Assembly (NCBI GenBank): GCA_003290165.1
Contig: QNQO01005754.1
Span: 1 to 64,000, forward strand
Direction of reading: 5' to 3'
DNA: 64,000 bases
From: Berberis thunbergii
Taxonomy: Eukaryota; Streptophyta; Magnoliopsida; Ranunculales; Berberidaceae
Part shown: positions 7,311 to 64,000 of the stretch, one piece after another
Layout: every line of letters begins with the position of its first letter
Numbering within the stretch: position 1 is the first letter of the stretch
Notes under the pieces: generated by a model
What the model saw: only the letters and a program-made list of their open reading frames with translations
Databases searched by the model: none
What the model was told of the DNA's origin: nothing
Position numbers and translations under genes: made by a program

Positions 7311-7713
7311 TGACGCCGGGCAGAACAGTGATTATCCTGTAGGCTAGTTCAACAGACAATTCACAAGGAATGATACAAGAGATTCGCCCAAAAACACAGA
7401 GAAAATAACTCTAATGTTCAATTAAATTACTCAAATCAATGGTATCCTACAATATTGAGGAAAAACTATATTTATAGTGCTCAAATAACTTAAATAATAA
7501 ACAGCCTATTCCTAAAAGAAAAAGTAGAATTAAATACTAAAATAACAAGCAGTCTATTCATAAAATAAAAGGTAAAACTTAATCTTAAAAGAAACTAAAA
7601 AGACTCCTAATTAAATTGAAAGATTATGAATAAGTTATTTAGTAAATAACTTTGAACCCAAATTAGGAACCCTATAAACCCAAATTAGGAACTCTAAAAA
7701 CCCTTCTATATCA
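7311..7713 (-). repeat. 3' LTR of gypsy element A
   Basis: Plus-strand TGACGCC at the left and ATCA at the right (TG...CA). It is followed on the right by ccccgggttgg, the complement of the polypurine tract. It contains a minus-strand TATA-like sequence (the plus strand reads atttatag near 7471). Confidence 0.8.
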
Positions 7714-7729
7714 ATCACCCCGGGTTGGA

Positions 7730-9079
7730 AAGAACTCATCCTCGAGTTCACAATAGCTTCATCGGAATGCTCTGGCGGCAGCCCAGGAAAAAGATCCTCT
7801 GGTATCAGGTCAAAAAACTCTACTAGCTACTACTGCACCTCCTGCATCAGTCACCTCGGTAGGAGTGGTCATTTCCGATGAGGTGCCAACACAATCTTCT
7901 TCCCTTTGATGCTAAGGGAATATGTATTTTTCCACCCATCATGGATAACACTACAATCATACTGCTAAGGCTTGCCTCAAAGCCTTTATTTAGCCACAAA
8001 AATTTGTACGGCTTGGGATGACGATCTGTCTTCAACTGCAATTTTTGGACAGCCTCTTCAGACACTATGTTCTCACAACTGCCACTGTCAATGATCATAT
8101 TGCAGACTTTATATGCAACTGTGTAGGTCATGTGAAAATATTGGTTCTCAACCAATCGTCCTCTGAATCGCCCTTGGGAGTCAGTAGGCTCTTTCGAACA
8201 ACCAGAGTCTCATGGCCATCTCCATACAACACATTTCCATCTTCATCATCATCATACAAATGCTCTCCAAGCTCCTCAGTTTCTTCTTCCTCAATAAGGA
8301 GATTGTTGCCCTTCTGAATAGCAGACTTCCTGCACTCAGTCGATCTATGTCTCTATTCACCACATCTAAAACATCTAATATTTGAGTTATAATTACTCTG
8401 CGGTGAATGCTGGGTAGGATGGGATTCCTGAGGGCGAACTTGCCTACTACTTTGATCACTTCTTAAAAATATGTATTCTGTTATGTTGTTTTTCCATAGC
8501 AAGTGCACGCTGGTAGGCTTCAGAAACATTCCTCAACGAGTGAAGTCGCGAAAATAAGGTTGAGTGTAGCCGTAGGAAATGACCCTTCATCTTCTTCTCC
8601 ATCTTCCCCCAATCAGTGATCTTGGCCTTGCCTTGCAAGTCTTGTGATCGCTTCAACTGCTCCCACCACGCAGATGCTCTGCCTTTGAGTTTGATGGTGA
8701 CCAATTTCATCTTGACACGATCTAGGACTTCCTTATACTAAAAAATATGTTCTACTTCATTCAACCAATCAACGAATCCTTCGACCTGTAATGTACCAAA
8801 AAACTCGGGTAGATCCACTCTGAATCTGAGGTCTCCATGATGATCCTTCCGACCACGGTGCTCCCAGAATTGAGCACGATTGTGATACGGGTTTTCGGAA
8901 TTGGAATCAGAATCGTGATCTTCCATCTCACGATTACCGAAATCCTGCGTCGTTGGACGCTGGGTTAACTCTGCAACTTGCCTCTGTAAAACCTCAATCA
9001 TCACATCCTGAACGCTACGATCACAGTGAGGGCCTTCCTCGTTCAAAACTTGTCCACGTCGACCACGACCACCAACCAT
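7730..9079 (-). pseudogene. Gypsy gag-protease remnant of element A
   Basis: Reading on the minus strand from an ATG at 9079: a glycine/arginine-rich N terminus; the gag core with FRVDLPEFFGTL and FVDWLNEVEHIF, then GRASAWWEQLKRSQ and WGKMEKKMKGHF; an IRCFRCGE zinc-knuckle piece; and a retropepsin with IDSGSCENIVSEEAV (about 8090-8050). After the protease a short linker resembling PEDLFPGLPPE appears, then directly SRMSSFQPG, normally the end of the integrase region. An internal deletion near 7760 thus removed RT, RNase H and integrase. Stops and frameshifts split the frame near 8738, 8456 and 8181. Confidence 0.75.
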
Positions 9080-9130: not shown

Positions 9131-9534
9131 TAACGCCGGACAGAATGGTGATTATCCTGCAGGCTAGTTCAAAAGACAATTCACAAGGAATGATACAAGA
9201 GATTCGGCCAAAAACACAAAGAAACTAACTCTAATGTTCAATTAAATTACTCAAATCAAAGGTATCCTACAATATTGAGAAAGAGCTACATTTTTAGTGC
9301 TCAAATAACTTGAATAATAAGCAGTCTATTCCTAAAAGAAAATGTAGAATCAAATACTAAAATAACAAGCAGTTTATTCCTAAAAGAAAAAGTAAAGTCT
9401 AATCCTAAAAGAAAACTAAAAGGACTCATAATTAAATTGAAAAATTACAAATAAATTATTTAGTAAATAACTTTGAGAGAAAATTAGGAACCCTAGAAAT
9501 CCAAATTAAGAACCTTAAAAACCCGACTACATCA
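9131..9534 (-). repeat. 5' LTR of gypsy element A
   Basis: 404 bp, matching 7311-7713. Its left terminal TG has mutated to TA. The primer-binding site lies immediately to its left. Confidence 0.8.
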
Positions 9535-15869: not shown

Positions 15870-18800
15870 TACCTTCGTCTATCTAGATCACCAGCATAAT
15901 CAGAATCAACAAACCCCCGAACCTGACATGAATCTCCACCGAAGTCCAAACCCACATCCAAGGTACCTTTTAAGTACCTAAGCATCCATTTCACTGCCTC
16001 CCAATGTTTCTTCCCAGGGTTTTCATATACCTGCGCACAACACTAACAGCCGGTGAAATGTCAGGGCGTGTACACACCATAACATACATTAAACTGCCAA
16101 CTGCACTAGCATAAGGAACATGCGACATGTATTCATTTTCTTCCACTGTGACTGGATATAACTTTCGAGAAAGCCTAAAATGTGAAGCCAAAGGAGTAAT
16201 AACCGGCTTTGCATTTTCCATGCCAAACCGTGATATGACCTTCTCAAGGTACTCCTTCTGTGAAAGAAATAATTTTTTATTCTCCCTTTCTCTTCTTATC
16301 TCCATACCAAGTATTTTCCTTGCAGCACCCATATCCTTCATCTCAAACTCAGATGCAAGTTGAGACTTCAATTTATTTATCTCCACCATACTCTTACAGG
16401 CAATGAGCATATCGTCAACATAGAGCAAAAGATAAATAAAATCGCCACTACGAAGTTTTTTCAAGTAAACACAAAAATCATACTGACTTCGTGTGAACCC
16501 ATGTTTCAACATAAAAGTGTCAAACCATTTGTACCACTACCTAGGTGACAGCTTTAACCCATAAAGTGATCTCCTCAAACGACAAACATGGTCTTCTTTT
16601 CCAACAACCTTAAAACCTTCCGGCTGATGCATATAAATTTCGTCCTCTAAGTCTCCATGCAAGAAAGTTGTTTTCACATCAAGCTGTTCAAGCTCAAGGT
16701 CACCATTAGCTACCAAGCTCAACAACACACGTATAGAAGTGTGTTTTACCACAGGCGAAACTATCTCATTGTAGTCAACGCCTTCCCTCTGAGCAAAATC
16801 TTTAGCTACTAATCTTGCCTTGAACTGAGTACCAGACTCTAGAGTACCTATTTCTTCTTAAACACCCACTTGCAACCAATTGCTTTCCTTCCATTAGGCA
16901 ACGACACTAGATCCCAAGTATGGTTCTTCTGGAGAGATTCCATCTCAACCTGCATAGCTACTAACCAACTCTGACTATTCGAATGATGAGCGGCCTGCTT
17001 GTAAGTAGTTGGCTCATCTTCTTCCACAGAGAGTGCATATGCAACCAAATCAACTATATTCAACTGACCATAGTGCTTCAACGGTTCTTCAAAGCCAAAT
17101 TTTTGAACTTGCTTAACTGATCATTTTGACCTAGTTAAGGCCAAAGGTTGCTGCTGGGATTGATTATCTTCAACTGGTTGTTGTTCCTCATGCTCTTCAG
17201 GCTCATAATTCAGATCATGTGTGCCTGCTTCAACCACTTGTTCATCTGCTGCATCCACAACCGCTTCAACTTCCACTTTCTAAGTGTTACTAGATTCACC
17301 ACCACTATCAACCAACTCCTTAGCTTTAGTACAAACTAACAAGGATTTCTCATCAAATGTAACATCTCAACTGATGACAAATTTATTATCCTCTAAACAC
17401 CATAGACGATAACCCTTCACGACTTTTTCATACTCCAAGAAAATGGCCTTCTTAGCCCTAGCATCAAGCTTATTTTCTTTCACATGGTAGTAGGCAATAC
17501 AACCGAAAACTTTCAGTATACTGTAATCAGCATGTTCACCTGACCACACCTCATAAGGTGTTTTGCAGTCTAATGTAGAATGTGGCGATCTATTAATCAA
17601 GAAACACGTGGTGGCTATTGATTCAGCCCACCATTCTCTGCCAAGACAAGCATTGGAGCGCATACACCTAGCTCTTTCAAGCATAGTACGGTTCAATCTC
17701 TCAGCTGCTCCATTTTGTTGTGGCGTGTCTCTAACAGTCCAATGTCGAACAATTCCTTCCTGATCACAAAACTGTTTGAAAGTACCCTCAGTATACTCGA
17801 TACCATTATCAGACCTCAAAGTCTTCACCTTTCTTCCAGTTCTATTCTCAACCATTGCTCTCCACCTTTTAAATGTCTCAAATACTTCATTCTTAGACTT
17901 CAAAAAATATACCCATGTGTAACGGGAATAATCATCAATGAAGGAGACAAAGTACCTGGAACCTCCCTTAGAGGCGACCTTCGCTGGCCCCCACACATCT
18001 GTATGCACATAGTCTAGAATACCTCTACTTGTGTGCTTGCTTGTATTGAATTTTACTTTGCATTGTTTTCCATATACACAATGCTCGCAAAACTCCATAG
18101 TCGGTTTCGACATTCCCTTCAGTAACCCTTGCTTGCTCAGTAAAGACAATCATTTTTCTGTCATATGCCCAAGTCGCATGTCCAAAACCTAGTGCTTTCC
18201 AATGAAGAAGTTCCCACTACCACATTTCTTGTTACCGTGTTACCAATCAAGGTGTACAAGTTACCTTGTTTGATCCCTTTTATGACAACCAAAGACCCAC
18301 GAACAACCTTTAAAACTCCACCTACCCCTGTAAACTTACAACCATTGGAGTCTAAAACACCGAGCGAGAGAATGTTCTTTTTCAAGGCTAGGACATGCCT
18401 CACATCAGTTAAGGTTCTCACAACACCATCATACATCTTAATCCTCATTGTTCCAATTCCAACTGTCTTGCAAGCATAATCATTACCCATCAGAACAGTA
18501 CCACCATCAATGTGCTCATAGGTAGTGAACCACTCCCTGTTTGGGCACATATGGTAAGAACACTCAAAGTCAAGGATCCATCTCTCAAAGATTTCTGTGT
18601 TTTCACCCGCAATTGAATAACATTATTCATCATTTTCCGTACTAGATGCATAACTTGCTTCACTAGTATCACCCTTATCTTGTTTTTTCTTGCCCTTCCA
18701 ACTGTTATCATGATTACTCTTATCTTGATTTGGATAATTTTTCCTAATATATGTGCCACCACTCTCTACATTTGTGACATTGTGGACCTCTAGACTTTGA

Positions 18801-19477
18801 TCTAGATTTTCCACTCTTTGAAGATGATTTGACTTGAGACCTTTCTCTAGCAACCAACCCTTTAGCTTGATCTTTTCCACTACCACTTGATGAAGTTTTC
18901 TTCCGAATTTCATTGGACAAGAGTGCACCGGTAGTTTCATCAAATGTAAGTTCATCTTTACCAAACAAAATTATTTGTACAAGATTTTCATATGACTGCG
19001 GCAAGGAGTAAAGCAATATAATTGCTTGGTCTTCATCCTCAATCTTCACATCCACATCTCTCAAATTTGAAATAATTCGTGTAAACTTGGCGATATAATC
19101 AACAATTGGAGTGCCATCATCCATTGCTAGTCTGTACAAATGGGTTTTCAAGTATGACCTGTTTGATAATGTCTTAGTCATAAACTGTGACTCAAGCTTC
19201 AACCAAACATCAGCTGCCATAGTCTCTTCATTAACTAAAAAACTATGTCTCTATCAAGACACAAACAAATATCAGCACGAGCCTCCAGATCCAATTCTTC
19301 CCATTCATCATCTGACATGGTTTCAGCCTTTTTATCCTTCCCTAGTAATGACTTGTGTAATTTCTGAGAAATAAGCAAATTCCTCATTTGTATTCTCTAA
19401 TATCCGAAATCGTTTTTACCATTAAATTTCTCGATTTCATACTTCCCCACATGTGCCTTGCTCACCTTGGATGTCAT
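15870..19477 (-). pseudogene. Copia gag-pol polyprotein, degenerate and truncated
   Basis: ATG at 19477 (MTSKVSKAHVGKYEIEKF). Gag UBN2 region at 19220-18744 ends in a zinc-knuckle start (CHKC). GAG-pre-integrase at 18550-18161. Integrase core at 18149-17367 with HTDVWGP, LRSDNGIEY and QQNGAAERLNRT supplying the D, D, E residues. RT pieces at 17081-16848, 16752-16537 and 16512-15991, including YVDDMLIA (catalytic DD). RNase H begins near 15980 and stops at 15870. At least seven stops or frameshifts, including TAT-TAG early in gag, separate these blocks. No polyprotein can be made; its parts are clear enough to assign the family. Confidence 0.85.
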
Positions 19478-26600: not shown

Positions 26601-28334
26601 ATGATTTTTTCATAACAATATCTTCGAAAGCAAACAAAGTAGAAGAATCAGATTCTGCTTTGAGGATGACCTAAATAGATGATGGTTTCCTACCTCTTTT
26701 CATCCGAACCAACACACGTGCTATTAATGTTGCATGCGGCTCAAGTAACGATTCAGACTCAATCATCATGAGCAGCACATCCCTTCAAGAGATGACTTAG
26801 CGAATTGATGTGACAACCAACTAACTCGGGCGGAATAACTGATGACACATAAAAATGATCACACCCCTGAGCCGTACACGTGTCATGATGATCTCGAGGA
26901 ACTACAGGCCCCAACATCAGCCCAACACTGATTTGGCCCAAGCGGTTTAAGCCCGCTCAATTTTAGTCCGCCAAGCGAACCCGAACTCTCACAGCACGCT
27001 AGGCCCACACGTCTCACAACTATCCTCAATACCCGTAAGCTCTCCTTAGGCAAGTATCTCGATGATCAACTTCGAACGGGCAACTACAACTGCTCTTTGC
27101 TCCTAACTAGGAAACAAACACCAGAGGTATTTTTCGAACAGGGAAACTCCCTTCTACGAATTTCTCTTAGATTGGGAACTATCTCTCACGTATCTATGAA
27201 CACAGAGCTAACATGGATCTTCCCTTCTACAGCATGTCTTCTAATTATAAAGGGATCTCCACAAAGATCTTCTCCCTAAACTACACCCACGATGGCCTAG
27301 TTAAACCTGGACTCCTTGCACTATAAATAAGACACAAGGTAGGTAAGCTAGGATACGCTACAAATTACGTATTACAGCATTACTCCTTCCTCAGAGCCAT
27401 GTCTGACTTTAGCATCGGAGTGTCATCGGCCACCACAGATCAACAGAAACCAGGTCAGAGCAAGGAGCAAAAAATGACTGCATCAATACTTATAACCATT
27501 TTACTAACTACGGTACCTTAATGGTATACTTTTCAGAAAAGTAGGCATTAAAGGTCATTTTCCCATTAGATTTTCTTGTGAAATTTTCAGAACCCTAAAA
27601 GAATGCTTATGATGAGGAGCTTTTGTACTGATCATGCAACTCTTAATTAGTCCACATTCTGATGGCATTTTTCTACTTTCAGATGGTTAGCTATGGTAGC
27701 CAAACTACCTGGAAGAACAGATAATGAAATAAAAAATCAGTCACATATAAACCTAAATAAACACTTTCAAAGACAAAAAAGTTCAACACCGAGGAAAGAT
27801 GTGATATTGCAGCCAGCAGAAGTATCTCAATGTGAAAGTGAATCAGAAACTAGTACTTCTCTTGACATTTATAAAATACCAACCATTTTGGAAAGCTCCA
27901 GCTTAGTGTTGTTGTCAATAGAAAAGACTACGTCCAATGTTACATCGTCACCAAGTTATACTAAAAGTTCAACCAATTTAATCCCCATTACATATGGGAA
28001 TATATTAGAAGAATTTGATGAGTTGAGTGGAAACTTTTGGACTGAACCTTTCCAGTGGACTGAAACTAACCAGGCAGAAAATTATACAACCTATGAAATC
28101 AAAGTGAGAAATGGAAATACATTGGAAGCAGTTGACAAATTTAGTGAAAATTTTTCAAGTGAGTCTTTTCAGTTGGAAGAATCCAACTTGGCAGATAATT
28201 ATACATCTAATCTGATTGATCCAGAACTTCTGTTTTTGCCTTCTCCTCAATATAGTTCTTCTGACGTTTATGACATGGAGTTTTGCTTCAATCGCCTATC
28301 TGGGACTGGAGAATTGTTGTCACAGGTATTTTGA

Positions 28335-33400: not shown

Positions 33401-34136
33401 TTTATTAGCACAAATGAAACTTGTAGGAATTATCACATATTCACAGCTTCATAGGCACGTGGCATTCACTGGATTTTTTTCATCCTGCGAAGCTTAAGTA
33501 TTTTTTTATACCAATAAAAATTTTCCTTGTACTAAATCCCACAATAGAATAGAATATAATTCCGAGGTAGAACTGATGAAGTCATTGTTCTTTTGAAGTA
33601 CTGATTTCTTTCTGTTTCTGTCGTTCTTCCTTTTGTGTTCCTCCTTATTTCCATGAATGATTTTTTTGTTAGTTTAATCGCAATTGTGTGGACTAATCAA
33701 AGAATGATGTCTATACACACATTCTCTCTGAAAGCATGTGAACTAAAAAAATTTCAATGAGTCAGTTTTCCATTTTGATCCAATTTACACGTGGTGTATT
33801 GAACGTCAATATTCAGTTTAGGTTCATTGAACTCTCACAGGTGAATGGAAGTACAACTTGACTTAAAATAAGTTGTTTTCCTGTCTTATTCCCTATAAAT
33901 CTATTGAAACAAGTAAACTAATACAAGAGGATATAAAACACATATTTCTGAACTATAACAAATTCTTTTCGACCAAGTGGGGCATTTTCTATTTCCTATG
34001 CCTAAGTAAACTTATGATGAAGAAGAACCGTCCATGAACCAGGCTAGTTGCCATGTTCGGACCTAGTAGGTCAAGTTAATACCATCCTTGTTGTGCGTAC
34101 ATAATAGCTTGTTGTTAACATAATAGCTTGTTGTTC
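33401..34136. repeat. Locus repeat R2 (right part) and R3 (left part)
   Basis: Continues the repeat broken by the solo LTR and matches 39100-40090 (for example tctgttgttcttccttttgtg and gatccaatttacac). It ends where gypsy element B inserted. Confidence 0.5.
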
Positions 34137-34612
34137 TGATGCAGTGCGGAAACGAGAAAAAGAAGGATGAGAAAATAAATTAAATGATAGGCTTGAATCC
34201 GTTGATTGGCTCACCAATAATCCGGAAACAAGGGTTCTACAAGTCGTTGATTGGCGCACCAATAATCTGAAAAGTAAGAAAAAAAAAACACAATAATCAC
34301 CTTAGAGAAAATATACCAAGATTATTAATTATCAAAAGTTTACCTACAATATTGAGGAATAACTCTATTTATAGTACTTAAATAACTTGAATAATAAGCA
34401 GCTTATTCCTAAAAGAAAAAGTAGAATCAAAGACTATAAAAACAAGAAGTCTATTCCTAAAAGAAAAAGTGAAGCCTAATCCTAAAAGGAAACTAAAAAA
34501 ACTCCTAATAAAATTTAAAGACTACAAATAAGTTATTTAGTAAATAACTTTGAGAGCAAATTATGAACCCTAGAAACCCAAATTACGAACCATAGAAACC
34601 CTCTGTGCATCA
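34137..34612 (-). repeat. 3' LTR of gypsy element B
   Basis: 476 bp. Minus-strand TATA (plus strand atttata at 34367-34373). It shares long blocks with the element A LTRs (aataagcag, ctattcctaaaagaaaaagt, aaataactttgaga). Confidence 0.85.
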
Positions 34613-34619
34613 TCCTCCC

Positions 34620-35880
34620 CGGGTGGAAGTGAATTCGCCCTCGAATTCGAATCTTCAGAACAACTAGAATCACATGTATATGGAATGAGGTGCTTGACAT
34701 TGAACACGCCATGGGTCTTGATGTGACTAGGAAGCTTGAGACGATAAGCATTGAGATTGATTTTTCAATGATCTCCAAAGGTCCAATCTTCTTAGCAGAG
34801 AAAGCTTATTATACTCACCCACTGAAAAACGATTCTTGGTCAAAACAACCCACACAAAATTGCCTTTCTCAAATTCCACCATATGTCAGTTTTGATTAGC
34901 TATGGACTTATAATGAGCCGTAGACTCCAATAACTTGGCTCGTGTCAGTTGATGAATGTGTTGCAAATTATTCACCATATCTTGTGTCTTCGTATGAACA
35001 GGCTTCATATCCGAAATAGGAGCTAGTTTTACTGGAGCTCGTGGTTGATAACCGTACACAATAATTTTAACCGTACTCCAATTAACAGAACGATTGAAAG
35101 TGAATTCAGCTTGGAATAGTTATTGATCCCACGTCTTCACATTCTCTTCAACCAAACACCGCAACAGATTGCCAAGAGAACAATTAACTACCTCCGTTTG
35201 ACCATTTGTCTGAGGATGATAAATACTACTGAAATCAAGTTTTGTACGCACTAACCTCCAAAGACATCGCCAGAAATGACCAAGAAACTTAGAATCCCAA
35301 TCAAACACAATAGATAATGGAAACCCATGTAAACGATAGACCTCCTGAAAATACAGTTGGGCAACGTTAACAACATCGGTGGTCTTCTTACAAGTAATGA
35401 AATGTGCCACTTTCGAAAATCTTTCCACTACAACCATAATGGAATCTGCTCCTCGATGAGTACGAGGAAGCCTGACAACAAAGTCCATACTCACATCAAC
35501 CCAAGGCTTGTCAGGTATAGGAAGAGGCATATAAAGTCTAGCATTCGTTGAAGTACCCTTTGAAACTTGGCACACCCTCCAATTCTGAACAAAACGCTCC
35601 ACCTCTCGCCTCAAAGTAGGCCAATAGAATGTTCAAGAAATGAGTCTAAACGTCTTGTCCCTCCCCATGTGTCCCTTATTATCCAATTCAGACACAATTT
35701 TGACTCGTAAGCTAGAGTCAAGAATACACAAAGTTGTTCGTTTGAACAAGAAACCTGTATGTAATAGAAAATTTGATCGCTGACCTGTAATAACTTCTTC
35801 AAGCACAAGAGAAAATAGGGGGTCAGTTGAATATAACTCAGAAAAAGTATCGAAACCCAACAATTTTGTCTGCATAGTCG
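34620..35880 (-). pseudogene. Integrase and 3' part of pol of gypsy element B
   Basis: The frame resumes at [15 protein letters not shown] (about 35880), the connection after RNase H, then the H2C2-like region ([27 protein letters not shown]) and the integrase core 35614-35120: VDVSMDFVVRLPR (D), FDWDSKFLGHFW (D), QTNGQTEVVN (E). After it come AEFTFNRSVN and the C-terminal linker ending SRANSLPPGEDD. The DDE residues are kept, but stops near 35630 and 35119 and later shifts make it non-functional. Confidence 0.8.
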
Positions 35881-37285
35881 TTATGAGCATAAAATAAACC
35901 AAAGCGTACACATCTGTTGCCAACCTAAAGTACTCATTATTATTTCCAGTAAATGCCACCTGCAATCCATGGTGAGTGTACATCATTGAAGTCACACCAT
36001 CAAACCTGAAGCCATCAAACTTGTATTCATCAAGCTAGCATCTCGCATTTGAAAATAGATATCTCAATACCTCCCAACTTCCATATTTGAAAAGACGTGA
36101 ATCCCACATCCAATGATAACCTCGTGATCCAGAGTGGAAATAGTGACTATCGATTCCATCAAACATATTCAATCCGTCTAACACATTGTTTGATTCATGG
36201 TTGTGCACAACATCCATGAGAACTAGCAAACCAAGCTCATGGCCTTTGTCTATCAACTATTTGAGATCATCTGGAGTTCCCCAGTGACTGCTAAGCACAA
36301 AAAAGTTGGTGACATGGTACCCAAAGCTAGCATAATATGAATGCTCATGAATAGCCATAAGTTTAACATCATTGTATCCAAGCTTCTTAATGCGAGGCAG
36401 TACATAATCTCTGAAGTTTGCATAGGTATTAATTAATGGCTCTGTACTACTCATGCCGACATGTGCTTCATAGATCCTCAGTGATTCTGGCCTTTTTGGT
36501 TGAGGATGCTTAAATACATATTTTTCCTCTTCTGGAGGATCATAGTATATGCCATTATAAGGAATTTCACCAGGCGTTTGTACAGAAAATTTTATCTAAG
36601 CAGGAATTGAATATTTAATGCTAGAAGGCGTGTCCATACGGATCTTTACTAGAGAGCCATGAGGAATCGGTGATGACTCGTCCACATTGTTTGGCAGAAA
36701 AATTTCCCAGACACTAAACTCATTCTAGTTCATAACATCAATATCGGGATTCCAATTGTTAAAATCTCCTATGAGTGGAGCTGACTTCGCTCCAGGAGCC
36801 CACTCTCTATAAGTTACACCGGTAGCACTGTGAGTGACCAAGTTTTTCATATCCTCGAGAAAAGGCTTCTAACCCACCTTCATACTTATCAATTGACTCG
36901 CGGACTTTCTTGTATTGCGTATAGCAATAATCAAGATGATCTTTGTGAGTTTTCAAAAATGGATCTATTTCATATATTCTCTGTCCAGTGCCAAATGGAG
37001 GAATATATCGTGGTTTAGCCACTAACGTTTCCACAATATATGAGGTTTGTAAACTGATGCTTTTACATCCTCATACTCGACCATCACACCACTTCTTATA
37101 AGTTCTAATGAAATAAGATCTTGTTCACCCTGGGGTTCTTCTAGGGTGGCTTCAGGAGTTTCCACAATATCCATGGAGGATGAAGGACCACCGCTCTCAG
37201 CACCTGGAACAAGGACTTTCTTTGAAGGACCAACAGTCAAAGATGGAGAATCGGAATCACTATAAGCCTTTCCAACACAAATCTT
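35880..37285 (-). pseudogene. Starch branching enzyme II, processed capture inside gypsy element B
   Basis: Intronless, in pol position. Order on the minus strand: N-terminal region (SKKVLVPGAES, about 37230); [36 protein letters not shown]; the CBM48 domain ([69 protein letters not shown]); then the GH13 barrel with [36 protein letters not shown], region 1 [26 protein letters not shown] and region 2 [19 protein letters not shown]. It stops in [12 protein letters not shown], so the last catalytic regions are absent: about 470 of the roughly 800-plus residues. The enzyme makes alpha-1,6 branches in plastid starch; the family gene has about twenty introns, none present here. In-frame stops at 36725-36727, 36596-36598, 36257-36259 and 36035-36037, and frameshifts near 37040 and 36830, kill it. 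Confidence 0.9.
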
Positions 37286-38161
37286 CTCTCCAATGTATCT
37301 TGCGATCAATTGTTTGTTGGTCTCAGGGAGGTCATTTCGAGCCAACAAATTGTAAAACTCCGTCGTGTATTCGTCCACCGTTCGTGCTCCTTGCTTCAAG
37401 TTCTGAAGTTGTTGATACATTAACTTTGAATAATTATTTGGTCGGAATTGAGAGTGCATATGCTTCATCATCTTTTCCCAAGAGGTAATTTTTTGCTTTC
37501 CTTGTCGTTGATGAGCGAGTTTTGATTGTTGCCACCAAGTCGTTGCTCTCTAACGGAACCTTGTAACAATAAGAGCCACCCGTCTATCATCCAGAACAAC
37601 CTTATACTCAAGTACTTCCTCAACTGCTGCCAACCAATCCAGAAATTCTTCAGGTTGACCATTCCCATGAAACTCCGGTATTTCTATCTTCAGACCAGAT
37701 TCTCGTAGCCAAGGCTCCAGATTATATGCAAAACCCCGACCACCTCCACGATGCCCGCGTCCTCCGAAAGGATTCTCGTAGTCCTCGTCTGTGTCCTCTT
37801 CATACGCATGATGATATTGACGGTTATTAAAGCCCCGTCCTCTATTGCCATGCCTCCCACCACGATCCCTCAAAGGTCCTTCGAAGTGATCATCAAACTT
37901 GGCATCTCCCTCATCGACTTGTAGTTGCCGATTTGGTTTTCTACTAGGGTGAATTCATAAGAGCCTCGTGATTTGTTCAGTTAGGGCCGTGAGATTAGCA
38001 TTTGTTATCTCAATATTAGCGTTTGCGGTTTCAAGTTGGACTTGTACCTGTGCTACATGCGCCTCAACTTGAAGAATTCGACCAACTTTGGCACGTTGCT
38101 TCTCTTCATCCCTCTCATATATGTTTTCAACTATCACCTCCCTTGGTTGATGAGGTGCCAT
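37285..38161 (-). pseudogene. Gag of gypsy element B, fused to the branching-enzyme block
   Basis: ATG at 38161 (MAPHQPREVIVENIYERDEE), a coiled-coil-like segment (VAQVQVQLETANANIEITNANL), a stop near 37955, a glycine/arginine-rich stretch (GGRGHRGGGRGFAYN), then the gag core: IEIPEFHGNGQPEEFLDWL, TTWWQQSKLAHQRQGK, FNQLQNLKQ-like and VDEYTTEFYNLLARND, ending LIARYIGEK. There the frame runs without interruption into branching enzyme sequence (ICVGKAYSDSDSPS). The zinc knuckle that normally follows is gone. Confidence 0.8.
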
Positions 38162-38179
38162 AATCCAAGAACCAACAAG

Positions 38180-38191
38180 GCTCTGATACCA
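38180..38191 (-). other. Primer-binding site of element B (initiator tRNA-Met)
   Basis: The minus strand reads TGGTATCAGAGC, complementary to the 3' end of plant initiator tRNA-Met, two bases inside the 5' LTR. Confidence 0.85.
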
Positions 38192-38193
38192 AC

Positions 38194-38665
38194 TGATGTT
38201 GCGCGGAAACGAGAAAAGAAGGATGAGAAAAAAATTAAATGATAGGCTTGAATCTGTTGATTGACTCACCAATAATCCGGAAACAAGGGTTCTACAATTC
38301 ATTGATTGGCGCACCAATAATCCGAAAAGTAGAAAAAAAAACACAATAATCTCCTTAGAAAAAATATACCAAGTTTATTAATTATCAAAAATCTACCTAC
38401 AATATTGAAGAAGAGCTCTATTTATAATGCTCAAATAATTTGAATAATAAGCAGCCTATTCGTAAAAGAAAAAGTAGAATCAAATACTTAAATAACAAAC
38501 AGTCTATTCCTAAAAGAAAAAGTAAAGCTTAATCCTAAAAGGAAACTAAATAGACTCCTAATTAAATTGAAAGACTACAAATAAGTTATTTAGTAAATAA
38601 CTTTGAGAGAAAATTAGGAACCTTGGTAACAAAAATTAAGAACCCTAGAAACCCTTTCTACATCA
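38194..38665 (-). repeat. 5' LTR of gypsy element B
   Basis: 472 bp, pairing with 34137-34612. Confidence 0.85.
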
Positions 38666-39560
38666 AGTTCTTATCCGTGTTGTGAAAGGATGGGTACTAC
38701 TTTGTAGAATTAATATTCCTACTGAGGGGGTAGAAAAGAGTATCTCCAAGACGTCGACTATATTACAGTTAACCAAAGCTCATATTGCATAGGCAATTAC
38801 TTCAGCACCGACGTCTGTTGCGTGGATATAGACTGAGCACAAACTAAGCAAAATGAATTACAACAGCCATAGCCATCTGGCAATTATAGCCTCAAGCTCA
38901 AGATAAGTTATTTTATCCAGAATTCTTTTTTGCAGAAACAGAGAAAGCAAGATAGACATAAGTCAGTCATAAAAAGAGGAAGTCAATCCTGAAAAAGGGA
39001 AAACTGCATACAAAAAGGAAAGGACTCATACAAGGTTACATGCTAGTATATGCTGATACATGCATTCCTTTGATGGAGGTAAGCTAATGCGTGCTCAAAT
39101 TTATTAGCACAAATGTAACCTGTAGGAAGTATATTTGAGATTCATACGCATGGCATTCACTAACTTTTTCACAATTGAGATGCCACTGACTTCATCATGC
39201 CAAGCTTCCTTCAATGAAAAATCAGTACTTAAGTACTTGTTGATACAAGTAGAAATTCTCCTTTTACAAAATCCCACAATAGAATAAAATAAAATTCAGG
39301 GGTAGATACTCAGGAAATCATTGTACTTTTGAAGGGCTGACTTCTCTGTGTTTCTGTTGTTCTTCCTTTTGTGTTTTTCCTTATTTCAACGCTCACATTC
39401 TCTCTGAAAGTAAGTGAACTAAAATTAGATCATGTTTATTAGTCAATTGAGTCTGTTTTTCCATTTTGATCCAATTTACACACGATGTGTTGAACGTCAA
39501 CATTCAGTTTAGGTGCACTGAACTCACACAGGTGAATGAGAGAGAACACATGAATGGAAG
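38666..39560. repeat. Locus repeat R3 (right part)
   Basis: Matches 29745-30060 and then 29400-29700 / 33400-33960 in block order. It shows the uninterrupted target site of the 30129-33395 insertion at 39091-39112. Confidence 0.55.
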
Positions 39561-40322: not shown

Positions 40323-42042
40323 CGATATTCACATAATTATTACATAATATATCCCTTAATTTATGCATGTTAGTGTTTCGATATTATATTGTATATTAAT
40401 TATTTCGTTTTCATGTCTTTATAGGAATTTGAGCGTAAACGATGAAATCATATTAAAGCGACAAGTTAAGGAAGGACAATTAGTCGATTTCAACGGTGGT
40501 ATAAAGCAGCCACAAACCTAAACCCGAAACCTAATTCATAACCTAAACCCAATCCATAATCTAAACCCAAACCCAACGCCAAGCCCAATCCTTCTCCCAC
40601 CCTCATTGATGAATCATTCCCTCATTTCATCCCTATTCATCTTGATAATTTGCTATAAATAGAAGATAATAGGGAGAAAGAGGGAGGAGGAAGGAAGGGA
40701 AGAAAAATAATAGAACATCAAACCCTCTTCCTTCACAAAAGGGGAGAAGGAAGAGAAGGAAGAAAAATATCATTGAAAATCAAATCCTCTGTCCTTCAAT
40801 CAAGTGATTCTCATCACCCTCCCCATCTATCATCAGCCACACCACCAAGCTCCACCTCGCCACCACCGTCACCACGCGACCACCACGAAACAGGGGCGTG
40901 ACAACCCTGTTTCGTGTCAAACTTTCACTCCGCCACCAATCTATGTCCCTCTCCCTGTCCATCATCCATCCACCACCATCATCCATCAAACACCATCACC
41001 TCCAGACAGCACCTCGCGATCCACCATCACCGCGAAGCGAAACAGAGTCACCATCACCGCCGCGACTCTGTTCCGCCTCGCGACAGAGCCACAGGCCATC
41101 CTCCTCTCCTCTATGTCCTCTCTTCGTCCAGACTTCCTTACCGCCTCTCCGCCATAGTCCAACCACCACAGAAAGCCTCACCGCGGCGTACCACCATCGC
41201 TGAAACAGGAAGCGAAAACAAGGAGTATTCACCGTGCTCGGTTTCTCTGTTTTTGAGTTTCTCACTGTCCCTCTCTCTTTTTCAGGTTTTGGAAGCATTT
41301 GGAGGTCAAGGGGACTCGCGAGGAGCGAAGATAAGCACCGCGAGCGGCGCTGTCGCGCTGGAGAAGAAGGTCGGTACTGTAGCGGGTACTGTAGCAGTAC
41401 TGTAGCAGAGATGGGAGAATGAGTCAATCTTTTTTGGCTATTCACACCCCCAATTCTGTTCTATACCACCATAGAGCTTGTGTACTTCATTTTATCAGGA
41501 TTCGTGTTCGGACCAACTGCTGAGTACCACCACATCGAGTTTGCGACAAACTAAATGGGTTGTATAAGTTATTGTGATTGATTTTACAGAATTCTATGCT
41601 CAATTACTAATTACAATTTATTTCTGAATGCTTTTGCATGAAATAATTTGTTAATGTTTAATAGAAACACTATATAATTTAATTGGAATTTAACAATCAC
41701 ATATTCGGTGTAAGCAAGGGATTCTCATCCCTAAAGTTTCTCGTTTTTAAATTCAGTAATTTTGATTAAATAATTTTGCTAACTCACTTGTGAGTCCAAG
41801 CCCACAAAGCCCATCCTTTTATTTTTCTTATTTTTAAATTTATTTTTAGTTTAGTTTTAAAATGATGTAACCCCATTTTCCATTTAAATTAGTTTAAATT
41901 AAATTATAAATTTCAATTGCATCCACTTCCTCGTGGGATCGACCCGTACTTGTCGTTGTCTACCAGTTAGGCACTGTGCACTTGCGGTTATTACAAGTGG
42001 GTTGAATTAACCTATTAATTTAGGTTAGTTAAGCTCGCATCA
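40323..42042 (+). repeat. 5' LTR of gypsy element D
   Basis: First base mutated (CGATATTC for TGATATTC). It contains telomere-like CCTAAACCC units at 40514-40578, a TATA box tataaat at 40654-40660 and repeated gtactgtagc near 41380-41405. The proline/histidine-rich frames at 40800-41400 come from CCACCA-rich 5' leader sequence and are not treated as genes. Confidence 0.85.
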
Positions 42043-46846: not shown

Positions 46847-48549
46847 TGATATTCACATAATTATTACATAATATATCCCTTAATTTATGCATGTTAGTGT
46901 TTCGATTATTATATTGTATATTAATTATTTCATTTTCATGTCTTTGTAGGAATTTGAGCGTAAACGATGAAATCATATTAAAGCGACAAGTTAAGGAACG
47001 ACAATTAGTCGATTTCAACGGTGGTATAAAGCAGTCACAAACCTAAACCCGAAACCTAATTCATAACCTAAACCCAAAACCTAATTCATAACCTAAACCC
47101 AATCCATAATCTAAACCCAAACCCAACGCCAAGCCCAATCCTTCCCCTACCCTCATTGATGAATCATTCCCTCATTTCATCCCTATTCATCTTGATAATT
47201 TGCTATAAATAGACGATAATAGGGAGAAAGAGGGAGGAGGAAGGGAAAGGAAGAAAAATAATAGAACATCAAACCCTCTTCCTTCACAAAAGGGGATAAG
47301 GAAGAGAAGGGAAGAAAAATATCATTGAAAATCAAATACTCTGTCCTTCAATCAAGTGATTCTCATCACCCTCCCCATCTATCATCAGCCACACCACCAA
47401 GCTCCACCTCGCCACCACTGAGCTCCGCCACCGTCAGCACGCGATCGCCACGAAACAGGGGCGTGACAACCTGTTTCGTGTCAAACTTTCACCCCGCCAC
47501 CAATCTCTGTCCCTCTCCCTGTCCATCATCCATCCACCACCATCATCCATCAAACACCATCACCTCCAGACAGCACCTCGCGATCCACCATCACCGCGAA
47601 GCGAAACAGAGTCACCATCACCGCCGCGACTCTGTTTCGCCTCGCGACAGAGCCACAGGCCATCCTCCTCTCCTCTCTGTCCTCTCTTCGTCCAGGCTTC
47701 CTTACCGTCTCTCCGCCATCGTCCAACCACCACAGAAAGCCTCACCGTGCTCGGTTTCTCTGTTTTTGAGTTTCTCACTGTCCCTCTCTCTCTTTTTCAG
47801 GTTTTGGAAGCATTTGGAGGTCAAGGGGACTCGCGAGTAGCGAAGAAAAGCACCGCGAGCGGCGCTGTCGCGCTGGAGAAGAAGGCCGGTACTGTAGCGG
47901 GTACTGTAGCAGAGGCGGGAGAATGAGTCAAATCTGTTTTTTGCTATTCACACCCCCAGTTCTGTTCTGTACCACCACAGAGCTTGTGTACTTCATTTTA
48001 TTAGGATTCGTGCTCGGACCAACTGCTGAGTACCACCACATCGAGTTTGCGACAAACTAAATGGGTTGTATAAGTTATTGTGATTGATTTTACTGAATTC
48101 TGTGCTCAATTACTAATTACAATTTATTTCTGAATGATTTTGCTTGAAATAATTTGTTAATGTTTAATAGAAACACTATATAATTTAATTGGAATTTAAC
48201 GATCACATATTCGGTGTAAGCAAGAGATTCTCATCCCTAAAGCTTCTCGTTTTTAAATTCAGTAATTTTGATTAAATAATTTTGCTAACTCACTTGTGAG
48301 TCCAAGCCCACAAAGCCCATCCTTTTATTTTTCTTATTTTTAAATTTATTTTTAGTTTAGTTTTAAAATGATGTAACCCCATTTTCCATTTAAATTAGTT
48401 TAAATTAAATTATAAATTTCAATTGCATCCACTTTCCTCGTGGGATCGATCCGTACTTGCCGTTGTCTACCAGTTAGGCACCGTGCACTTGTGGTTATTA
48501 CAAGTGGGTTGAATTAACCTATTAATTTAGGTTAGTTAAGCTCGCATCA
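46847..48549 (+). repeat. 3' LTR of gypsy element D
   Basis: TGATATTC...CGCATCA. Telomere-like units 47039-47125, TATA at 47204-47210. Confidence 0.9.
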
Positions 48550-59948: not shown

Positions 59949-61497
59949 ATGGTGAGAACCTCCTACTGTGATAAAATAGGGTTGAAAAGAGGAGCATGGT
60001 CTCCTGAAGAAGATAGGAAGTTGTCAGCTTACATCAAGAAATATGACCATTGGAATTGGCGCGAGATCCCTAGGTTTGCAGGTAAGTAACTAATAAGAGT
60101 GACAATCCACACATTCTAGTTTGAATATATGGGTTTCATTAATCGGTAACTAGTTGTACTAATTTTTTTTGTATTAGAGATCATTTAGAAAAAGAGATGA
60201 TTAGCACAGTTTCATTGTGTGCATATCAAAAATTTTTAGACATAGCTTGTGATGGCGCGCGGGTTCAATATGATCAGTTGACTGAACAAGTAATTAGTGC
60301 ATATTTTCTGAGGAATATTCTATACAGTTCCTTACTTCATATGAAGATGGTGGTCGATAGATCTCCATGGACTAGCTAGGGTTTGCTATCTTGAGTTAAA
60401 GAAGCGCATGCAAAGGAGTTCAACGCCAAGGGAGGAGGCAATACTTCAGCCCATCACTGAAGTATCTGAATGTGAGAGCGAATCAGCAGATCTAGTTGAT
60501 ACTTTTCTTGACAATCACTACACCAAATTGGCACTTTTGTAACAACTCTCAAAACAGTATCACTTTTGAGATGTTGCAATTGACCAAACAATTTCAAGTC
60601 AAAACTAAATTTAGTCAAAAAAATAAAAAACAGTAACACAAAAAAAATGATACAATAAGTTGGATCACCATAAATAGTATCACTTTTATAATCATACTTT
60701 TCATGGTGATACAATTATTTTATCATTTTGTTTGTGAAAATGTGTAAAATTGTTAGGTGAATTGTTACACTTCAAAAGTGATACTGTTTTGAGGGTTGTT
60801 ACAAAAATATCAATTTGGTGTAGTGAATGCTCCAAGGCCTTTCATTCCAAAAAATTCTATTGTAGTCTCTGTGTCGCTAGAAAGAGCCATACTGGAAAAA
60901 TCAGCGTCACCCGCTGATACTAATAGTGAAACCAAACAAAAAGTTGGGAATGTTATACCAGATACAACTAATGAGATCAGTGGAAACCTTTGGGCAGAAT
61001 TCTTTCAAATGCCAGGCTCCAACTTTGTGGGGGAGAATTTTACATATAGTCTGGTTGATCCCGAACTTGTTTTTCCGCCTCCTTCCTTGCATGATTGGAC
61101 TGATCCCAACCAGGTGATAGATGACGCCAAGCTATCATTTGAGGAGGATTTTATAGCTGCTAGTATGCTTGATCAAGAAACTGTCATTCCCACTTCTCCT
61201 TTATATAGTTTGTCTGATGAGCCCATTCAGGAAGTAGACTCCAACTTCTTTGACGATAATTTTATCCATTTTATGGGTGATCAATATTTTATATTTCTGC
61301 CTGCTCCCTTTTGTAGTTGGGTTGAGTCCTTTCAGGTAGCAGAATCTAATTTCTCCGCAGAAAATTTTACATCTAATCAGCTGGCTAATCCAGAAAATGT
61401 CTTCGAATCTTCTTCAACAAATAGTTTCGACAATGGAGAAGAAGTTTACTTCAATCATCTATTGTTGGGTGGCGAAGAAGTACCTATATTGTTCTGA
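59949..61497 (+). pseudogene. R2R3-MYB pseudogene, copy 2 (exon 2 deleted, MITE in exon 3)
   Basis: Exon 1 59949-60081 is intact (133 bp: MVRTSYCDKIGLKRGAW, EEDRKLSAYIKKYDHWNW) with its donor. A longer in-frame start at 59889 exists, but the family begins MVR, so 59949 is chosen. Relative to copy 1, 641 bp are deleted between two TAAA tetramers (after 60400), removing the end of intron 1, exon 2 and the start of exon 3, and with them all of R3. Exon 3 resumes KKRMQRSSTPREEA and is then split by a 310-bp MITE (60516-60825). Beyond it the C-terminal domain is fully open to the TGA at 61495-61497 (SNFVGENFT, FPPPSLHDWTDPNQ, FNHLLLGGEEVPILF). Without R3 this cannot act as a normal R2R3 DNA-binding factor. 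Confidence 0.85.
60516..60825. mobile_element. CACTA-type MITE, 310 bp, in MYB exon 3
   Basis: Ends CACTACACCAAATTG in inverted orientation on both sides, continuing as a long imperfect inverted repeat (TTTTGTAACAAC, TCTCAAAACAGTATCACTTTTGA versus its counterpart). A 3-bp target duplication AAT (60513-60515 and 60826-60828) is the CACTA signature. Copy 1 has the empty site (cttgacaatgctc at 2371-2383). Non-coding. Confidence 0.9.
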
Positions 61498-63390: not shown

Positions 63391-64000
63391 TGACGCCGGG
63401 CAGAATAGTGATTATCTTGCAAGCTAGTTCAACAAACAATTCACAAGGAATGATACAAGATATTCGCCCAAAAACACAGAGAAAATAATTCTAATGTTCA
63501 ATTAAATTACTCTAATCAATGGTATCCTACAATATTGAGGAAAAACTCTATTTATAGTGCTCAAATAACTTTCATAAGCAGCATATTCCTAAAAGAAAAA
63601 GTAGAATCAAATACTAAAATAACAAGTAGTCTATTCCTAAAAGAAAAAATAAAGTTTAATCCTAAAAGAAAACTAAAAAGACTCCTAATTAAATTGAAAG
63701 ATTACGAATAAGTTATTTAGTGAATAACTTTGAAAGCAAATTAGGAACCCTAGAAACCCAAATTATGAACTCTTGAAACCCTTTTGCATCAGTCGCCCCG
63801 GTTGAAAAGAACTCATCCTTGAGTACACAATAGCTTCATCGGAATCCTTTGGCGGCAGCCCATGAAGAAGATCCTCTGGTATCAGATCAAAAAACTATGC
63901 TAGCTACTGCTGCACCTCCTGCATCAGTCGTCTCAGTAGGAATGGTCCTTTCTTGACGAGGTGCCAACACAATCTTCTTCCCTTTGATGCTAAGGGAATA
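63391..64000 (-). mobile_element. Gypsy element A, copy 2 (runs off the window)
   Basis: LTR 63391-63791 (TGACGCC...GCATCA) after CTAGT (63386-63390), then the polypurine complement and the start of the deleted interior, matching 7714-7924. Same target site as at 7311. Confidence 0.85.

Follow-up and report, generated by a model that had tools for sequence, protein, structure and literature searches.

Element Structure

The window, a stretch of 64,000 nucleotides from Berberis thunbergii, contains at positions 34137–38665 on the minus strand one non-autonomous Ty3/gypsy LTR element carrying a fragment of starch branching enzyme II (SBEII) coding sequence. The 5′ LTR lies at 38194–38665 and the 3′ LTR (TGATG...CATCA) at 34137–34612, both on the minus strand; the two are in direct orientation, end in TG...CA and differ at 48 of 473 positions (K2P 0.1095). 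A primer binding site, TGGTATCAGAGCC (38179–38191, minus strand), adjoins the 5′ LTR and has a sequence that we take to fit the initiator-Met tRNA, and a polypurine stretch, GGGGAGGA, precedes the 3′ LTR. The target-site duplication is represented by the flanking 5-mers TGTTC at the 3′ side of the element (34132–34136) and AGTTC at its 5′ side (38666–38670), both given on the plus strand and equal at four of five bases. The initial annotation had reported matching LTRs, a primer site and a target duplication here, and the LTR pair and TGGTATCAGAGCC were confirmed, with the flanking 5-mers alike to the extent just given.

Downstream of the primer binding site, the capsid part of gag occupies 37288–38161 (minus strand; Pfam PF03732, E 4.5e-14, above the cut-off) and stops short of the zinc knuckle seen in the uncaptured gag copy L051. 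The SBEII block follows at 35892–37287 (minus strand) and runs from the first base of donor exon 2 to a point inside exon 14, with 12 introns absent. This block had been placed at 35880–37285; its presence holds, and its exact limits are those given here. The part of the element that lies beyond the block (34613–35891, minus strand) consists of the RNase H–integrase linker (TATGCTCATAACGACTATGCAG...), a decayed integrase and the polypurine stretch. The integrase H2C2 domain (Integrase_H2C2) was detected with an E of 1.2e-4, which is below Pfam's own cut-off. RT and RNase H were not found ahead of the integrase, and the interval from gag to the end of RNase H contains only SBE. Since the hybrid appears to have no protease, RT or RNase H, its movement must presumably have used the enzymes of the uncaptured family.

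Origin of the SBEII Block

Compared with the PDB, three separate reading-frame pieces of the block hit plant branching enzymes (best E 2.8e-42, 2.2e-7 and 4.3e-18), which agrees with its earlier description as same-sense SBEII coding sequence. The 2.24-Gb assembly containing the window was searched for SBEII genes, and among the best 40 of 53 scored candidates intron-bearing genes were present on contigs C568/C8380 and C6345/C154. C8380 is 99.8% identical to C568 over the 9.7 kb compared and is probably its other haplotype. The block is 94.4% identical to the C568 exons over 1403 sites, and this similarity identifies the SBEII gene on C568, in the same genome, as the donor. In a protein comparison with the whole donor as query, the highest identity among 120 listed sequences of 3906 was 77%, in Papaver atlanticum. 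The paralogue on C6345 was rejected as donor, with 91.2% identity over 1324 sites.

The block corresponds to 13 consecutive C568 exons joined to one another. All 12 of the intervening introns, which range in size from 103 to 7202 bp, are missing, and for each of them a GT-AG boundary could be placed with no base gained or lost. The exon edges all come from alignment and reading frame, and the script that placed the introns considered GT-AG boundaries only; in C6345, 1 of the 11 introns placed needed a 1-base shift. Exon 1 of C568 was placed by reading, with its start codon at 336 and its end at 468 of the gene piece, and so was intron 1 (1371 bp), which was read in its whole length. An intron-free, RNA-derived SBEII had been proposed from the first, and alignment to the host gene supports it, crossing 12 of 12 intron positions without an intron; donor introns inside the block, which had been named as evidence to the contrary, numbered 0 of 12.

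Copies and Integration Sites

Both seam patterns, searched with up to two mismatches, were found at six places in the assembly and at no others, and reversed-pattern controls returned 0. These places are C5740 (the window), C85 at 143 and 72 kb, C1551, C10530 and C2186. The copies on C5740, C85 (both), C1551 and C10530 have flanks in common and define a single MYB-array site. The window and the C85 copy at 143 kb, compared over 10 kb, show 99.4% identity and are probably haplotypes or redundant assembly, and the C85 copy at 72 kb is a tandem relative in the array. C1551 and C10530 differ by 0 substitutions in 1401 compared block sites, with several single-base indels in C10530. Transposition as the means by which the array copies spread was ruled out by their common flanks, and they are segmental duplicates or haplotypes. 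Element-free paralogous units that are contiguous across the array site occur, among the best 40 of 141, at C10530:40581–40854 (85%) and C1551:76869–77141 (84%). The array insertion site lies within a dispersed repeat: many scored rows of 70–74% identity cross the join, and these are not all relatives of the locus.

The hybrid on C2186 is bounded by LTRs and its flanks are unlike those of the array. Its empty site is contiguous in C3710, C1854 and C831, where query positions 148–247 align across the 200/201 join at 94% (27 of 27 candidates scored). Past about 50 bases on each side of the site, the flanks in these three contigs are broken by other gaps. The 5-mers flanking the C2186 hybrid agree at only three of five bases (CACGA/CACTT), a point against the explanation favoured below. 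Both seams occur at the same six places and only five changes in 681 sites are common to all six copies, which points to a single capture ancestor; the differing flanks and the empty sites show that this hybrid integrated at least twice. A genome search for both junctions had been suggested with the initial annotation, and it is this search that yields six places and two integrations. Two unrelated element halves lying around an older pseudogene, the arrangement that had been named as fatal to the capture, were ruled out: both seams are common to independently inserted copies and recur at C2186.

The 3′ Seam and the Replaced Region

At the 3′ seam (35891–35892, minus strand), SBE sequence ending in ...GGTTTATTT gives way to element sequence beginning TATGCTCATAACG...; the hybrid reads GGTTTATTT|TATGCTCATAACGACTATGCAG, the donor reads GGTTTATTTAATGCTTGTAAACGACTTAATTC at a position within exon 14, and the uncaptured copy on C325 reads GACGTTCTATGATCATAACGACTATGCAG. 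The seam lies in mid-exon and keeps the reading frame. In the translation of C325, DALSRRSMIITTMQTK, the seam is located at the codon that directly follows DALSRR. As DALSR is presumably the end motif of RNase H, the seam would lie just past this domain. In 34 copies without SBE (among the best 40 of 127), similarity to the hybrid begins at query positions 66–70, which correspond to window positions 35895–35891. The 3′ seam appears to have come from recombination during reverse transcription, as template switching would give, and to this extent the switch that the initial annotation proposed here stands.

The size of the replaced region was estimated from relatives of the element. Lists of gag and integrase copies were drawn from the best 40 of 162 and the best 40 of 646 scored, respectively, and at least six uncaptured contigs appear in both. 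Measured between the points corresponding to window positions 37290 in gag and 35875 in the integrase, the gag–integrase distance is 2381 bp in C188 and C6591 and 2368 bp in C325, compared with 1415 bp in the window hybrid; it is about 3.2 kb in C477 and C8050 and 8.6 kb in C370. On this evidence the block takes the place of about 2.4 kb in which NC, protease, RT and RNase H would be expected. Replacement of RT in particular is suggested by the gag–integrase distance in the relatives together with the flanking zinc knuckle and DALSRR. The earlier description of a post-gag stretch replaced by SBE was in this respect correct, with the extent given by the spacing in relatives and the loss of RT deduced from distances and motifs.

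The 5′ Seam

At the 5′ seam (37287–37288, minus strand), gag sequence ending in ...ATACATTGGAG is joined to exon 2, which in the donor begins GGAAGATTTG. The uncaptured gag copy L051 (on C7545) reads GCAAGATACATTGGAG|GTATGTGTAAT and continues through the zinc knuckle. Pattern matches aside, the uncaptured sequence at the seams comes from two copies, L051 for the 5′ seam and L052 for the 3′ seam. Around the junction itself, uncaptured gag reads TACATTGGAG|GTATGTG (GGAG|GTATGT). The donor has TTTTTATAG ahead of exon 2, whose first bases are GGAAGATTTGTG (ATAG|GGAAG). In the C2186 hybrid the sequence is TACATTGGAG|GGAAGATTTGTG (GGAG|GGAAG), its gag end being the ATACATTGGAG given above. The five array copies, including the window, carry one G>A change at the first base of exon 2 (A in the array, G at C2186). 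The frame across the seam, GGA G|GG AAG, preserves both gag and SBE, and a single 175-aa open frame spans the seam, in line with the first observation that the gag frame runs into SBE.

The gag sequence at the seam has the properties of a 5′ splice site. GGAG|GTATGT ranks 1 of the 100 GT sites tested across 1976 nt, made up of the window's 5′ LTR to gag plus 600 bases of L051; the scoring model was built from 24 SBEII donors of two paralogous genes, two of which are identical to the tested 9-mer and so favour it. In both paralogues, moreover, one SBEII intron has GAG|GTATGT as its 5′ splice site according to the alignment. The 25-base gag site occurs at 97 places in the genome within three mismatches (reversed control 0), and GGAGGTATG is kept in 26 of the 26 places that have 0–1 mismatch among these 97.

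Most likely, the 5′ seam was made by splicing from the gag 5′ splice site to the SBEII exon 2 acceptor, because the position of the seam is exactly that of the one joined to the other. Exon 1 has no acceptor, so exon 2 is where splicing would be expected for a transcript that enters the gene from upstream or within intron 1. Since introns end in AG, a template switch over 3 nt (AGG) onto an RNA that kept intron 1 would fit this seam as well; that reading is weighed below.

Proposed Route of Capture and Alternatives

The sequence establishes a cDNA-like structure with a splice-site-like 5′ edge and a mid-exon 3′ seam, both in frame. We consider it highly probable that the SBE block was acquired in two steps, in which an LTR-started transcript was spliced into SBEII and the product then underwent one recombination with normal element RNA. 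In the first step, an intact, same-sense member of the family would have lain upstream of the SBEII gene or within its intron 1. A transcript initiated in its LTR would have entered SBEII, and the gag site GGAG|GTATGT would have been spliced to exon 2, which is the first exon to possess a 3′ splice site, with the remaining SBEII introns removed normally. The product would have retained the LTR leader, primer binding site and start of gag and would have ended in SBEII. In the second step, this hybrid RNA and a normal element RNA would have been packaged together. Synthesis of the minus strand would have started on the normal RNA and proceeded through its 3′ LTR and integrase; at TATG.TCATAACG it would have switched templates, landing on the hybrid RNA within SBEII exon 14. 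Intron 1 of the C568 gene (1371 bp) contains no match to the element, and the postulated donor-locus element was not found there. Among the 97 gag-site places, one same-strand family member is on C568, about 91.7 kb upstream of SBEII; this is far for read-through, and we gave it no weight.

The gag–exon 2 joint could alternatively have come from trans-splicing of two separate transcripts, one of the element and one of SBEII, which we regard as unlikely. The C568-allele intron 1 without an element is in its favour. Cis splicing of read-through RNA is the commoner process, and it speaks for the cis route. Trans-splicing has the same splice-site evidence, so that it divides the best explanation and does not oppose it, cis and trans being indistinguishable here.

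The explanation put forward in the initial annotation, which is also a usual account of gene capture by plant LTR elements, is that two template switches took place between packaged element RNA and mature SBEII mRNA. This would explain the absence of introns and also the 3′ seam, which is in mid-exon with patchy local similarity typical of switching. The 5′ seam is a different matter, since it falls on splice sites, and the 5′ switch is not upheld. Mature mRNA would read TCATCTT|GGAAGATT at the exon 1/exon 2 boundary and gag reads TTGGAGGTATG; a switch guided by the common TTGGA predicts TTGGAAGATT. The hybrid instead carries TTGGAGGGAAGATT, a sequence compatible only with a break at the exon's first base and no more than 1 nt in common. 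The switch would thus have had to coincide both with an exon edge and with the best-scoring 5′ splice site in gag, and two switches seem improbable as a whole.

Less probable still, at a level we would call very low, is a single AGG switch that joined gag RNA to an SBEII RNA with intron 1 retained or with its start inside that intron, together with the 3′ switch. Gag (GGAGG) and the intron 1/exon 2 boundary (ATAGGG) do both contain AGG, but the RNA in question would have to be without 12 introns and yet keep intron 1, and the switch would have to occur exactly at the acceptor; a common AGG is, moreover, the remnant of any AG|G...AG|G splice pair.

A LINE-type processed SBEII pseudogene within a gypsy element, or flanked by halves of such elements, has a negligible probability: three other largely intron-free, 5′-truncated SBEII copies do exist in the genome, each on two contigs (L036/37, L038/39, L047/48), but these extend to near the C-terminus, whereas the captured block is cut at both ends, stops inside exon 14, passes into the element without poly(A), replaces element sequence instead of interrupting it, and has both seams repeated at the independent LTR-bounded insertion on C2186. 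The other retrocopies (L036–L039, L047–L048) resemble the block in being largely intron-free and differ from it in their 5′ truncation, their extent to near the C-terminus and the lack of any element match beyond SBE. Poly(A) runs were found after 0 of these 6 loci within 900 bp.

Relation to Known Gene Captures

Two-step acquisition by splicing and recombination has a counterpart in retroviral oncogene transduction, which proceeds by read-through, splicing and then recombination. The packaging of read-through RNA was reportedly described by Herman and Coffin in 1987. The hybrid is like a transduced oncogene in that, judged here from sequence alone, splice sites mark the join of the 5′ leader and gag with the host exon, in that the introns are gone, and in that the 3′ seam would have been made by non-homologous recombination away from an exon edge. 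It differs in that the element is a plant Ty3/gypsy, the gene is metabolic and there is no sign of selection for the cargo. For retroviruses, it is stated that transcripts of a provirus may be spliced from a donor site, either retroviral or cryptic, to an acceptor in the host gene (PMC515179).

Among plant LTR elements, Bs1 of maize is described as carrying pieces of a plasma-membrane H+-ATPase gene and of other genes, and it is similar to the present element as a case of host coding sequence inside a plant LTR element (PMC13317346). In that source, a summary through which Bs1 is compared here, Bs1 holds pieces of three genes, in contrast to the one gene, with 13 exons, found in the hybrid (PMC13317346). 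Relative to Bs1, the present case has its donor, its uncaptured relatives and both of its seams identified, with the 5′ seam on splice sites. Pepper NLRs are reported to have been retroduplicated inside LTR elements that are mostly non-autonomous and moved in trans (PMC5664825), and a survey of rice and sorghum reports genes retroduplicated inside LTR elements (PMC3726574). These genes have likewise lost introns compared with the parent gene, and the accessible sections of both papers describe capture of spliced mRNA with no gag-to-exon splice seam (PMC5664825, PMC3726574). A 2026 review describes both transduction and template switching, in the portion available (PMC13317346).

Gene capture by plant LTR elements (Bs1, NLR retroduplication) and retroviral donor-to-host-acceptor splicing are, then, already known. 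Neither splice-made capture by plant LTR elements nor capture of SBE was found in the open-licence PMC papers searched, insofar as their text was accessible, and within those papers the combination of splicing and recombination in a plant Ty3/gypsy element appears to be new. Plant LTR gene capture is often deduced from intron loss, with the steps guessed. The present case allows a base-by-base comparison of the donor, uncaptured relatives, seams and two integrations, from which splicing and recombination emerge as separate steps.

The more general reading is one on which we are evenly divided: that a host gene was captured by an LTR retrotransposon that is not a retrovirus, through read-through, splicing and then a single recombination, that the resulting in-frame gag–SBE–integrase fusion was mobile at birth, and that the gag 5′ splice site, common to many copies of the family, would make the family prone to capture exons from any gene lying downstream. 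If it is right, the route of oncogene transduction would not be special to retroviruses, and splice sites in gag would predict which element families shuffle exons.

Divergence and Decay of the Copies

LTR pairs have a K2P of 0.086–0.135 in the array copies and 0.069 at C2186. Plant substitution rates are 6.5e-9 to 1.3e-8 per site and year, and at these general plant rates, from which those of the host may differ, the window insertion would be about 4–8 million years old.

Substitutions in the block were counted after excluding columns gapped in any array copy, which leaves 681 sites with C2186 and 700 without it. Over the 681 sites, five changes are common to all six copies, two of which, at the 3′ seam, are letters that the uncaptured element has. 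The array copies have 12 changes in common, and 37 are confined to C2186. Another 18 array-wide changes were counted over the 700 sites where C2186 is deleted, at which changes on the shared stem and in the array are indistinguishable. There are 78 changes within the array and nine on the donor's branch. On these counts, the array and C2186 lineages parted soon after capture. No stop or frame-shifting indel is common to C2186 and the array in the approximately 700 bases of SBE left in C2186, and decay therefore followed spread, as had been suggested initially and as holds for the part that C2186 keeps.

The SBE block decayed neutrally after capture. The 144 coding changes outside the shared stem comprise 105 nonsynonymous, 33 synonymous and six stop changes (.73/.23/.04), compared with a no-selection expectation of.71/.246/.044; selection on the block was ruled out by this fit to neutrality. 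C>T/G>A changes in the window copy number 7 in CG, 11 in CHG and 18 in CHH contexts (donor positions 66, 99 and 433, respectively), a pattern that would fit DNA methylation of a silenced transposon. Of the 1383 21-mers in the window copy, 397 still match the SBEII exons exactly, the longest stretch being 93 nt.

Further SBEII copies and family members in the genome

The Berberis thunbergii assembly also contained three more copies of starch branching enzyme II (SBEII), which were mostly without introns and truncated at the 5' end (L036/L037, L038/L039, and L047/L048). Each was present on two contigs, with an identity of 99.1–99.9% within the pair, and the match was interrupted in each copy by a single gap of approximately 0.2 to 1.4 kb. 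The 900 bp 3' of these copies contained no poly(A) run. These three largely intron-free copies fall outside the gypsy family of the hybrid element, and SBEII RNA seems to have been retrocopied frequently in this genome. A more distant branching-enzyme gene (67–68% DNA identity) was identified on contigs C910 and C403 (L040/L041) in several pieces, which are probably exons.

The contig carrying the donor SBEII gene, C568, also carried a gag copy belonging to the uncaptured family (355411–355435), on the same strand as SBEII and ~91.7 kb upstream of its exon 1. Simple arithmetic based on the 97 matching places gives an expectation of ~0.002 for a same-sense copy this near upstream, although this is a post hoc observation and 97 understates the size of the family.

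Genomic surroundings of the hybrid element

The hybrid element in the window lies in an array of duplicated units, which recur on contigs C85, C1551, and C10530. Open frames resembling R2R3-MYB exons were observed at 27663–28334 and 60793–61497. Partial LTR-like pieces at 7446–7749, 9255–9534, and 63526–63807 shared 83–90% identity with the LTRs of the hybrid copies and may represent solo LTRs or fragments from that element family. A second pair of direct repeats (40382–42042 and 46907–48549; ~6.5 kb apart, with pieces 90–99% alike) enclosed open frames and looks like a second LTR element. On the minus strand, frames resembling copia-type integrase, RT, and gag were noted at 15991–19250 on reading the translation.
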